Shown here in pieces: positions 7,926 to 10,732 of a stretch of 64,000 nt of DNA; position 1 is the first letter of the stretch, and each line of letters starts with the position of its first letter. The translations under genes and the position numbers were made by a program. The notes under the pieces were generated by a model. It was not told the origin of the DNA and searched no databases. It saw nothing but the letters and a program-made list of their open reading frames with translations. The stretch covers positions 248,001 to 312,000 of the forward strand of contig NZ_FNCF01000005.1 of the NCBI RefSeq assembly GCF_900100695.1, written 5' to 3'. The DNA is from Klenkia brasiliensis (lineage in GTDB: Bacteria; Actinomycetota; Actinomycetes; Mycobacteriales; Geodermatophilaceae).

Positions 7926-8948
7926 ATGCGCCTGGCAGTGATCCCTGGAGACGGCATCGGCCCCGAGGTGGTGGCCGAGGGCCTCAAGGTCCTGGGCGAG
8001 GTCGCCCCCGACGTGGAGGCCACCCACTACGACCTCGGCGCCGCGCGCTGGCGGCGGACCGGGGAACTGCTGCCCGACACCGTGCTCGACGAGCTGCGCG
8101 GCCACGACGCGATCCTGCTGGGTGCCGTCGGCGACCCCGGGGTGCCCGCCGGCATCCTCGAGCGCGGTCTGCTGCTCAAGCTGCGCTTCGAGCTCGACCA
8201 CCACGTCAACCTGCGCCCGGCCAAGCTCTACGACGGCGTCGAGAGCCCGCTGGCCGCCCCGGGCACCATCGACATGCTCTGCGTGCGCGAGGGCACCGAG
8301 GGCCCCTACACCGGCAACGGCGGGGTGCTGCGCCGGGACACCCCGCACGAGGTGGCCACCGAGGTCAGCGTCAACACCGCCTTCGGCGTGGAGCGGGTCG
8401 CCCGCTACGCCTTCGAGCGCGCCGTCGCCCGCCCGCGCAAGCACCTGACGCTGATCCACAAGACCAACGTGCTCACCCACGCCGGGTCGCTGTGGTCGCG
8501 CACGGTCGAGGAGGTCGCCGCGGAGTTCCCCGAGGTGACCGTGGCCTACCAGCACGTGGACGCGGCCTCGATGTTCTTCGTCACCGACCCGTCCCGGTAC
8601 GACGTGATCGTCACCGACAACCTGTTCGGCGACATCGTCACCGACGTCGCCGCCGCGGTCACCGGCGGCATCGGCCTGGCCGCCAGCGGCAACATCGACG
8701 CCTCGGGCACCCACCCGTCGATGTTCGAGCCGGTGCACGGCTCGGCCCCCGACATCGCCGGCCAGGGCATCGCCGACCCCACCGCCACCGTGCTGTCGGT
8801 CGGCCTGCTGCTGGACCACCTCGGCCGCACCGAGCAGGCCCGCAAGGTCAACGCCGCCGTCGCCTTCGACCTGTCCACCCGCGACACGGCGCAGCCGTTG
8901 CGCACCGCCGAGGTCGGCGACCGCTTGGCCGCCCTCGCCGGCGGCTGA
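7926..8948 (+). CDS. leuB: 3-isopropylmalate dehydrogenase
   Basis: Oxidises and decarboxylates 3-isopropylmalate to 2-ketoisocaproate in leucine synthesis; with CimA and LeuCD it can also act on 3-methylmalate to give 2-ketobutyrate for isoleucine. The 340 residues start [15 protein letters not shown] and include the dehydrogenase segment ending [26 protein letters not shown] and [21 protein letters not shown]. This is the short actinobacterial form. The start fits the TAGCCT box. It is followed by a hairpin at 8965-9005 and then the cimA leader, so leuB and cimA appear to be separately transcribed. Confidence 0.96.
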
Positions 8949-8964
8949 CGGCCCCCTGCACCCG

Positions 8965-9005
8965 ACCCCGCCCCGGGAGCTGCTCGACAGCTCCCGGGGC
9001 GGGGT
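8965..9005 (+). terminator. Terminator hairpin after leuB
   Basis: 18-bp perfect stem (8965-8982 with 8988-9005), 5-nt loop CTCGA, ending 2 nt before the predicted -10 box of the cimA leader transcript. No T-run. Confidence 0.75.
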
Positions 9006-9007
9006 GC

Positions 9008-9013
9008 CATCAT
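9008..9013 (+). promoter_or_regulatory. Possible -10 hexamer (CATCAT) for the cimA leader transcript
   Basis: CATCAT sits 8 nt before the leader-peptide ATG at 9022, the same geometry as the TANNNT boxes of neighbouring genes. It departs from TANNNT at the first base, so it is weak. If used, the leader peptide itself is translated from a leaderless mRNA. Confidence 0.35.
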
Positions 9014-9021
9014 CTGCGGCG

Positions 9022-9054
9022 ATGCACACCACCGGCACGATCATCATCACCTAG
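9022..9054 (+). CDS. Leader peptide with Ile-Ile-Ile, upstream of cimA
   Basis: Ten codons, M-H-T-T-G-T-I-I-I-T, then TAG. Three consecutive ATC codons sit near the end and three Thr precede or follow them. Isoleucine is the end product of the CimA route, and threonine is the alternative precursor of 2-ketobutyrate. The gene is followed within 60 bp by two hairpins, the second with a T7 tract. This is the layout of ribosome-mediated attenuation known for branched-chain amino-acid operons in actinobacteria. Function is inferred from codon content and position; no homology can be claimed for 10 residues. Confidence 0.65.
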   Translation: MHTTGTIIIT

Positions 9055-9083
9055 CGCGCAGTCACCCCCCCCCGACTGCGCGC
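9054..9083 (+). promoter_or_regulatory. Leader hairpin 1 of cimA attenuator
   Basis: 10-bp stem GCGCGCAGTC (9054-9063) with GACTGCGCGC (9074-9083). The loop is A followed by nine C (9064-9073). Its left arm begins on the last base of the leader-peptide stop codon, so a ribosome at the Ile codons or at the stop would cover it. It could act as a pause hairpin. Confidence 0.6.
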
Positions 9084-9085
9084 CC

Positions 9086-9112
9086 ACCTCCCGTACCCCG
9101 GGAGGTTTTTTT
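9086..9112 (+). terminator. Rho-independent terminator inside the cimA leader (attenuator)
   Basis: 8-bp stem ACCTCCCG (9086-9093) with CGGGAGGT (9099-9106), loop TACCC, followed by a run of seven T (9106-9112). It lies upstream of cimA in the sense direction, 33 bp before the GTG. It is the only hairpin with a real T-tract that I noticed in the window, which argues for a regulatory terminator. Confidence 0.75.
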
Positions 9113-9145
9113 GTGCCCGGACCCGTCCCCGCGAGGAGCACCCCC

Positions 9146-10732
9146 GTGACCAGCACGCCCGTCGAGGTCTTCGACACCACGCTGCGCGACGGCGCCCAGC
9201 GCGAGGGCATCACCTACTCCGTGGCCGACAAGCTCGCCGTCGCCCGGCTGCTGGACTCCGTCGGGGTCACCTACATCGAGGGCGGCTGGCCGGGCGCCCT
9301 GCCCAAGGACACCGAGTTCTTCGCCCGCGCCCGCACCGAGCTGCAGCTGCGGCACGCGGTGCTGGTCGCCTTCGGCGCCACCCGCAAGGCGGGCACCCGG
9401 GTCGAGGACGACGCCCAGGTGCGCGCCCTGCTGGACTCGCAGGCGCCGGTGGTCTGCCTGGTCGCCAAGAGCGACCCCCGCCACGTGCGCGACGCGCTGC
9501 GCACCACACCGGAGGAGAACCGGGCGATGGTGGCCGACACCGTGGCCTTCCTGGTCGGCCACGGCCGGCGGGTGTTCGTGGACTGCGAGCACTTCTTCGA
9601 CGGGTACGCCGCCGACCCCGACCACGGCGTCGCCGTCCTGCAGGCGGCCTTCGACGCCGGCGCGGAGGTCGGCGTCCTGTGCGACACCAACGGCGGCATG
9701 CTGCCCTCGGGCATCGGCCGGGTGGTCGCCGACGTGCGGGCCCGGGTCACCGGCCAGCTCGGCATCCACTGCCAGGACGACACCGGCTGCGCGGTCGCCA
9801 ACTCCCTGGCCGCCGTCGAGGCCGGGGTCACCCAGGTCCAGGGGACGGCGAACGGCTACGGCGAGCGCGCCGGCAACGCGAACACGTTCACCCTCATCGG
9901 CACCCTGGTCACCAAGATGGGCCTGCCCGTCGTCCCCGCCGAGTGCCTGCCCGAGCTCACCCGGGTCAGCCACGCGATCGCCGAGCTGGCCAACCTCACC
10001 CCCGACGACCACCAGCCCTTCGTCGGCGCCTCCGCGTTCGCGCACAAGGCCGGCCTGCACGCCAGCGCGATCAAGGTCAGCCCCGAGCTGTACAACCACC
10101 TGGACCCGGCGGTGGTCGGCAACGACATGCGCATCCTGGTCACCGAGATGGCCGGCCGGGCGTCGGTCGAGCTCAAGGGCCGCGAGCTGGGCGTGGACCT
10201 CACCGGCCAGGACGCCGCGGTCGGCCGGGTGGTCACCGCGGTCAAGGAGCGCGAGGCCCGCGGCTGGTCCTACGAGGCCGCCGACGCCTCCTTCGAGCTG
10301 CTGCTGCGCGGCGAGCTGCCCGACGCCCCGGCGCCGCTGTTCGAGCTGGAGAGCTGGCGGACCACCGTGGAGCACCGCACCGACGGGCAGGTGGTCAGCG
10401 AGGCCGTGGTCAAGGTCGGGCTGCCCGACGGCGACGGCGGGACCGAGCGCGTGGTCGCGGTCGGCGAGGGCAACGGGCCGGTGAACGCCCTGGACAACGC
10501 GCTGCGCGCCGCGCTGGTGGGCCGCTGGCCGCAGCTGGCCGACGTGGCGCTGAGCGACTACAAGGTGCGCATCCTGGGGTGGACCGGCGGCACCAGCGCC
10601 ACCACCCGGGTGCTGGTGGACACCGCGGACAAGGCGGGGGAGTGGACCACCGTCGGCGTGCACGAGAACGTCGTCGAGGCCTCCTGGCTGGCGCTGGTCG
10701 ACGCCCTCACCTACGCCGTGGTCAGCCGGTGA
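9146..10732 (+). CDS. cimA: (R)-citramalate synthase
   Basis: Condenses pyruvate with acetyl-CoA to citramalate, opening the threonine-independent route to isoleucine. 528 residues. The HMGL-like TIM barrel carries FDTTLRDGAQREG (catalytic Arg-Asp) and YIEGGWPGALPKD, which fits the citramalate-synthase family rather than LeuA, then GIHCQDDTGCAVANSLAAV, GTANGYGERAGN and AFAHKAGLHASAI. The C-terminal LeuA-type regulatory domain runs from about 380 (GNGPVNALDNALR). GTG 9146 follows GAGGAG at an 8-nt gap. It is preceded by the Ile leader and terminator. It overlaps the convergent VOC gene by 11 bp. Confidence 0.93.
   Translation: MTSTPVEVFDTTLRDGAQREGITYSVADKLAVARLLDSVGVTYIEGGWPGALPKDTEFFARARTELQLRHAVLVAFGATRKAGTRVEDDAQVRALLDSQAPVVCLVAKSDPRHVRDALRTTPEENRAMVADTVAFLVGHGRRVFVDCEHFFDGYAADPDHGVAVLQAAFDAGAEVGVLCDTNGGMLPSGIGRVVADVRARVTGQLGIHCQDDTGCAVANSLAAVEAGVTQVQGTANGYGERAGNANTFTLIGTLVTKMGLPVVPAECLPELTRVSHAIAELANLTPDDHQPFVGASAFAHKAGLHASAIKVSPELYNHLDPAVVGNDMRILVTEMAGRASVELKGRELGVDLTGQDAAVGRVVTAVKEREARGWSYEAADASFELLLRGELPDAPAPLFELESWRTTVEHRTDGQVVSEAVVKVGLPDGDGGTERVVAVGEGNGPVNALDNALRAALVGRWPQLADVALSDYKVRILGWTGGTSATTRVLVDTADKAGEWTTVGVHENVVEASWLALVDALTYAVVSR

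Follow-up and report, generated by a model that had tools for sequence, protein, structure and literature searches.

In the trp, his, thr and ilv attenuators of enterobacteria, the position of the ribosome on sensor codons chooses between the terminator and readthrough. We propose that the leader of cimA described here is decided in the same way, although, unlike those systems, it has no third segment that pairs with the terminator, is probably leaderless and carries hairpins that abut.

The actinobacterial ilvB leaders of Corynebacterium, Mycobacterium and Streptomyces, as described in PMC1262725, PMC10272879, PMC11857589 and PMC13236596, share with the cimA element a peptide of branched-chain codons, a hairpin at or over its end, an intrinsic terminator and an isoleucine-pathway gene; the cimA element differs in its target and in a sensor made of Ile alone. 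For the C. glutamicum ilvB leader, a three-hairpin model has been described in which antiterminator and terminator overlap, whereas no such overlap was found in the cimA element. The S. lividans leader peptide IlvL (MRTRILVLGKRVG) is reported to be leaderless (PMC8079986). The actinobacterial leuS leaders (PMC1262725; S. lividans LeuL2, PMC8079986) likewise carry Leu codons in a short leader, with a hairpin abutting a terminator in three leuS loci of this analysis, but they sense Leu and serve a tRNA synthetase, and PMC1262725 terms them classical attenuators with antiterminator hairpins. The LEU element before leuA is also an actinobacterial leader with sensor codons ahead of a related enzyme gene; according to PMC1262725 it uses a pseudoknot near the Shine-Dalgarno box and has no terminator, whereas the cimA element has one.

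No published cimA attenuator was found in the literature searched, as represented by titles and the beginnings of abstracts, which agrees, within that literature, with the first-pass annotation of this DNA. In the available portion of the PMC1262725 survey, no conserved structures are reported before amino acid pathway genes other than those for Trp, Cys, Leu and the ileS T-boxes, and the corresponding portion of the PMC8079986 re-annotation gives eight S. lividans leader peptides, none of them for cimA. At the gathering score, Rfam yields two tRNAs in the window and no T-box or other family at the cimA leader; at E up to 5, the region 8900-9250 gives nine sub-threshold matches, and the leaders of eight relatives give no match. 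Within these searches cimA is a new target, and the element probably has a non-overlapping two-hairpin design, the ilvB and leuS relatives being already known as leaders whose mechanism is either unclear or ascribed to three hairpins.

The leader between leuB and cimA

The window, the 64-kb stretch of DNA analysed here, contains the element between two genes whose earlier identification is borne out by profile searches: the protein encoded 5′ of it scores 582 bits against the 3-isopropylmalate dehydrogenase (leuB) profile NF002898 (cut-off 393), and that encoded 3′ of it exceeds, with 589 bits, the cut-off of 450 of the citramalate synthase profile (Table 1). The short reading frame with three ATC codons, the 10-bp hairpin that begins on its stop codon and the 8-bp hairpin followed by seven T, all described in the first-pass annotation, are found exactly as stated.

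Table 1 Features of the cimA leader region, in window coordinates
Feature	Position	Strand	Basis or remark
Extended -10-like element, TGC CATCAT	9005..9013	+	By eye; about 7-8 nt upstream of leader ATG
Leader ORF MHTTGTIIIT (10 codons), stop TAG	9022..9054	+	Sequence read directly
Leader start ATG	9022-9024	+	Sequence read directly
Putative sensor codons, three consecutive Ile ATC	9040-9042, 9043-9045, 9046-9048	+	Sequence read directly
Leader stop TAG, its G being the first base of hairpin 1	9052..9054	+	Sequence read directly
Hairpin 1, 10 bp, -18.8 kcal/mol	9054..9083; arms 9054-9063, 9074-9083	+	Sequence and folding
Hairpin 1 loop ACCCCCCCCC, C-rich	9064..9073	+	Pairing with terminator 3′ arm possible, one C.A mismatch
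Gap between hairpin 1 and terminator, 2 nt	9084..9085	+	Sequence
Intrinsic terminator hairpin, 8 bp, -13.8 kcal/mol	9086..9106; arms 9086-9093, 9099-9106	+	Sequence, folding, covariation
U tract, seven T	9106..9112	+	Sequence read directly
Shine-Dalgarno-like GAGGAG of cimA	9133..9138	+	By eye
cimA, citramalate synthase, proposed regulated gene	9146..10732; start GTG 9146-9148	+	TIGR00977, 589 bits, E 5e-177

The cimA leader is an exact observation and not a product of chance. Folding of the leader RNA had been suggested as a check in the first-pass annotation; the 141-nt RNA 9008-9148 folds much more stably than shuffled versions of it, none of 200 reaching its stability (z = -5.48). When both strands were scanned for hairpins (8 bp or more) placed 0-2 nt upstream of a terminator of at least 7 bp, a single site was returned in the window, the cimA leader, and such an abutting pair was absent from 40 first-order Markov sequences of window length, scanned on one strand each. 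A covariance model of relatives that included the cimA leader itself also placed its best window match there (101 bits, E 1.4e-24), the runner-up reaching only E 0.21.

Among the 97 leaders recovered from the Geodermatophilaceae (the family set, see below), the -10-like region has T at position -13 relative to the ATG in 78 and at position -8 in 54, its commonest form being TGC TTTACT N7 ATG. This element suggests a transcript start at or next to the leader ATG, i.e. a leaderless leader ORF; leaderless starts are described as frequent in the actinobacterial group by PMC4633059 and PMC8079986. Between leuB and the leader lies a perfect 17-bp inverted repeat (8966-9004, 5-nt loop, no T run) that spans the expected -35 region; it recurs in part in two close relatives (L002 and L003) and was not seen in the other genera inspected. 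The stretch 9113-9120 directly behind the T run is kept within the family, reading CGTGTTCGGG in numerous relatives, and shows partial complementarity to the leader. A pairing of the leader GGCACGA with the post-T-run TCGTGTC, seen in a single-sequence fold, is doubtful: by eye it is broken in several relatives, for example by TTTTC or CATGTC forms, and the post-T-run stretch is not conserved outside the family.

Conservation, distribution and agreement of codons with the downstream gene

Matches to cimA (E <= 1e-100) occur in 102 of 112 Geodermatophilaceae genomes, at 103 places, of which 102 upstream regions were examined; one match starting at residue 140 was dropped (G040), and one of the retained regions has almost no upstream DNA (G069). 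The element, selected by the string TAGCGCGC alone and accompanied by a leader ORF upstream of it, is kept in 97 of these 102 regions, three of the 97 segments being duplicates of others. One of the five exceptions lies at a contig end, and in the other four a cimA with no such leader follows closely on the preceding gene, either directly behind leuB or after a short gap. Ile codons number two to four in every one of these leaders (234 ATC and 21 ATT in total), and 94 of the 97 have Ile two codons ahead of the stop. Leader length is 8-11 codons at 93 loci, 15 at three and 20 at one. The first-pass annotation had named non-conservation of the leader ORF or of its Ile codons in relatives keeping cimA as the outcome that would speak against it; the opposite is observed, and, as it had proposed to ask of related genera, conservation of the Ile codons and both hairpins extends well past the genus.

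R1, a covariance model based on 64 Geodermatophilaceae sequences, has matches in 162 of 249 order genomes, in 51 of 68 genera (E <= 0.01; Geodermatophilaceae members included), and in 148 of 296 genomes of the class, in 66 of 115 genera (E <= 0.001); in one family of the order (f8) matches are absent or marginal. Among 80 named cimA loci chosen by their protein alone, 59 match R1 on the coding strand just upstream of the gene, including loci of Micromonospora, Amycolatopsis, Pseudonocardia, Nakamurella, Cellulomonas, Kribbella and Nonomuraea, as well as 16 of 17 from Streptomyces. The remaining 21 loci (upstream sequence is missing for two) show neither an R1 match nor a parsed terminator, and these loci, together with the roughly half of the class genomes that lack a match, weigh against the Ile attenuator as an explanation. 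R1 contains leader columns, and Ile conservation in loci selected by it is partly built in; the fair sets for this property are the family set, chosen by TAGCGCGC only, and the named set. Citramalate synthase is the entry to the threonine-independent isoleucine route, and would gain a dedicated Ile sensor in much of the actinobacteria, Streptomyces among them.

The element is found before other genes as well. For 108 further loci taken for comparison (39 + 29 + 40, several of them chosen as a genome's second match), tblastn and profile searches identified the downstream gene as cimA in 88, ilvB in 15, leuS in three and an ACT-like gene in two. The genome under study itself has a second copy, found by R1 before ilvB (L153, contig C8 245207-245327, 2.7 kb to the left of the window), whose leader reads VLRSALLVVID from a GTG start; the first bases of the window lie inside ilvC. 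Seven family genomes have no cimA leader, three of them without a cimA match at E <= 1e-100 and four with cimA but no leader before it. The covariance model finds no copy before cimA in any of these, and in all seven its matches lie elsewhere, seven before ilvB and one before leuS. That one sequence-structure model recovers the matching layout in the same genomes, at 15 ilvB and three leuS loci of the comparison and at seven and one in the loss control, places the ilvB and leuS copies in the same set as the cimA leader. The first-pass annotation had included neither the ilvB copy next to the window nor the leuS copies elsewhere.

The leader codons change with the gene. All 13 ilvB leaders read, out of 15 loci (L243 and L256 were left out of the codon reading), carry runs of the LLVVI, LLVIV, ILVL or LLLVI type, the leuS leaders carry LLL at three of three loci read, and the cimA leaders carry Ile. 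Leu-only leaders of the same layout were also noted before leuS at L236, L238, L241 and L349. In the 112 loci compared beyond the family set used first, the leader frame holds 2.11 Ile per 7 codons, and the other two frames 0.02 and 0.19. The presumed sensor codons therefore match the downstream gene, Ile for cimA, Leu/Val/Ile for ilvB and Leu for leuS. An ordinary terminator behind leuB would be nothing unusual, but Ile codons retained in 97/97 family leaders and confined to one frame across the class, in an element that follows cimA, ilvB and leuS and not leuB, contradict a plain terminator with a chance ORF and no Ile sensing, and leave that reading scarcely credible.

Hairpin geometry and the search for an antiterminator

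Covariation was assessed in a structure-blind alignment of 71 sequences, obtained from 73 non-redundant ones by removing two with a long leader and a long loop (L092 and L226); the non-redundant set was drawn up without Streptomyces loci L222-L225 and without any locus for which no hairpin was parsed, and a 100-base dummy (L184) was left out. Pairing holds in 92% of the cells of these 71 sequences and falls to 42-55% when the partners are slid, while 134 cells are changed on both sides vs 36.5 in shuffles. Both-side changes affect six pairs of the terminator and 6 of the 10 pairs of hairpin 1, whose four basal pairs are invariant. In an all-against-all scan of the 73 non-redundant sequences the top signals are the stacks of hairpin 1 and the terminator, and no third stacked covarying helix appears in the scanned columns, which exclude the loop centres.

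Two distances are kept across the class: that from the Ile codons to hairpin 1 and that between the hairpins. Of 105 loci that do not belong to the family set, 74 have a last Ile codon that starts 8 nt upstream of hairpin 1, a count biased by taking the leader frame as that with most Ile codons; the three-frame comparison at 112 loci is free of this bias. The stop codon lies at -4 to -2 nt relative to hairpin 1 in 67/105 loci and at +7 to +16 nt, i.e. inside it, in 37/105. With gaps of up to 30 nt permitted free of penalty, hairpin 1 and the terminator are 0-2 nt apart in 95/97 loci of the family, in 67/88 of the other cimA loci and in 40/59 of the named ones; the best hairpin does not abut in 2/97, 21/88 and 19/59, partly because Streptomyces insert about 60 nt in hairpin 1. 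In six Streptomyces loci (L276, L282, L289, L291, L293 and L341) this insert lies within hairpin 1 and the base of the hairpin still abuts the terminator; the leader of L276 reads MLSFAMIIGSRRAGPQ by eye.

Nested folding gives no base-pair switch in the window, the terminator keeping P >= 0.995 whether the modelled ribosome sits on Ile7, Ile8, Ile9 or the stop codon. Its mean P while hairpin 1 is free is 0.999 over the 97 loci of the family and 110 from elsewhere; with the whole 5′ arm of hairpin 1 covered, the mean is 0.849 in the family (n = 97) and 0.977 in the others (n = 110), and values below 0.5 occur at 14/97 and 2/110 loci, because the C-rich loop then competes. The element has the leader ORF with end-product codons and the intrinsic terminator between leader and gene that mark an attenuator, and no antiterminator sharing bases with the terminator was found; it would work like an attenuator, though not of the classical three-segment kind. 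With no third helix in 73 sequences, a terminator P near 1 and loops that vary freely outside the family, the first-pass annotation was right that no classical antiterminator overlaps the terminator. Its overall reading stands as regards an Ile-codon leader and a terminator dedicated to cimA, and does not stand as regards pairing of the C-rich loop as a general mechanism.

Proposed mechanism and alternatives

Based on the above data, we propose that the cimA leader is an isoleucine-responsive, ribosome-mediated transcription attenuator, belonging to an actinobacterial set whose other members stand before ilvB and leuS, and we assign this reading, with the cycle that follows, a probability of about 0.7. 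Transcription would start at the leader ATG, and a ribosome would load on the 5′ end of the RNA. With ample Ile-tRNA, the ribosome would pass the Ile codons to the stop and cover the 5′ arm of hairpin 1; in the absence of this hairpin the terminator would close, and transcription would end near 9112. When Ile-tRNA is scarce, the ribosome would stall on the Ile codons just upstream, so that hairpin 1 could form and, standing 0-2 nt away, keep the foot of the terminator stem open in the RNA polymerase exit channel, allowing cimA to be transcribed. A further role of hairpin 1 may be to pause the polymerase, giving the ribosome time to catch up. Since the stop codon lies inside hairpin 1 in many families, a fed ribosome must enter and open the hairpin, and a starved one would get no more than a short way in.

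Formation of hairpin 1 is the one feature that starvation would alter in every family. The sense of this switch follows from two considerations: cimA should be on when isoleucine is short, and hairpin 1 would form on the Ile stall, so that it must favour readthrough. Readthrough on starvation would also agree with the model published for M. tuberculosis ilvB1, where, as PMC13236596 describes, the leader RNA is about 120 nt long and changing LVVI to AAAA abolishes induction, the reporter staying low. PMC1262725 cites, on the other side, codon changes in the S. coelicolor ilvB leader that had no effect. Ile attenuation of cimA is well supported by the comparison of loci, and cimA is probably on only when isoleucine is short.

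How hairpin 1 acts on the terminator we infer from geometry. In the absence of a third covarying helix and of a thermodynamic switch, abutment is the only conserved link between the two. At the release point the terminator foot would be at the mouth of the exit channel, and a second duplex 0-2 nt away should clash with it; the review PMC12288461 describes a NusA-widened channel that takes one hairpin duplex plus one single strand. Several points count against the proposal. The terminator P of about 1 at every ribosome position in the window leaves the steric step resting on geometry, and abutment is missing from the best hairpin of the minority of loci counted above. Where the 5′ arm is wholly covered, the freed C-rich loop of the 14 family loci competes with the terminator in the opposite sense. 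With the ribosome at the last Ile codon, its edge is expected in the first 4-5 nt of hairpin 1, which would weaken the hairpin, and the invariant basal pairs go beyond what pairing alone explains. Only tentatively, and with less confidence than even odds, do we extend the steric step to a class-wide design in which antiterminator and terminator have no base in common, the starvation hairpin would block terminator closure by its bulk, and a swap of sensor codons would retarget the element to Ile for cimA, Leu/Val/Ile for ilvB or Leu for leuS.

Hairpin 1 might instead be mainly a pausing hairpin of the his/trp type, stalling RNA polymerase about 9-11 nt downstream (at a C|G of the terminator arm) to await the ribosome, with timing or an unseen factor tuning termination. 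A leaderless leader needs such a wait for its ribosome, pauses are described as lasting longer when a duplex stands 11-12 nt behind the RNA 3′ end (PMC12288461), and the distance from hairpin to CG is, by eye, nearly constant at 8-10 nt. This constancy is not independent evidence, however, because the terminator stem relies on those very bases, and pausing alone would leave a rise in readthrough on Ile shortage unexplained; we regard it as unlikely.

Also unlikely, in our view, is a loop-terminator antiterminator, in which hairpin 1 would use its C-rich loop (a copy of the terminator 5′ arm, mostly ACCUCCCC among the relatives) to pair with the terminator 3′ arm (GGGGGGU/GGGAGGU), either as an H-type pseudoknot with hairpin 1 standing or as a nested helix with its 5′ arm covered, the ribosome position deciding. 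The Corynebacterium ilvB-II motif has been proposed to set its P1 loop against the terminator likewise (PMC10272879), and such a pairing is possible in the Geodermatophilaceae cimA leaders: the first-pass annotation had pointed to it, and at least 5 complementary nt are present in 88 of 97 family loci (median 7), with one mismatch left in the window. It does not hold generally, since only 55 of 110 loci elsewhere reach 5 nt (median 4.5), and outside the family the loops differ freely in sequence and in length. Loop edges show no covariation with the terminator (loop centres lie outside the scan columns), and the nested form would favour readthrough with the ribosome at the stop, which is the wrong sense. 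The C-loop pseudoknot was dropped as a general mechanism on account of the free loops in order and class sequences, and is kept here as a rival.

The invariant base of hairpin 1 (9054-9057/9080-9083, GCGC pairs) could alternatively be the contact of a regulator that binds the hairpin sequence as DNA or RNA, the leader ORF being only an addition. The pairs above this base covary freely, which is unexpected for a sequence read-out, and the sensor codons change with the gene; we consider such a site very improbable.

Under the proposed attenuator, the near-zero gap bears on how the ilvB and leuS leaders could switch without overlapping parts, and it predicts that a few inserted bases would break the switch. 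The element would then be a small, swappable amino-acid-responsive part.

At two loci (L248 and L249), an Ile-codon leader with abutting hairpins precedes a small protein of about 105 residues, which has a weak ACT-domain match below the Pfam cut-off and may be a further member of the regulon.
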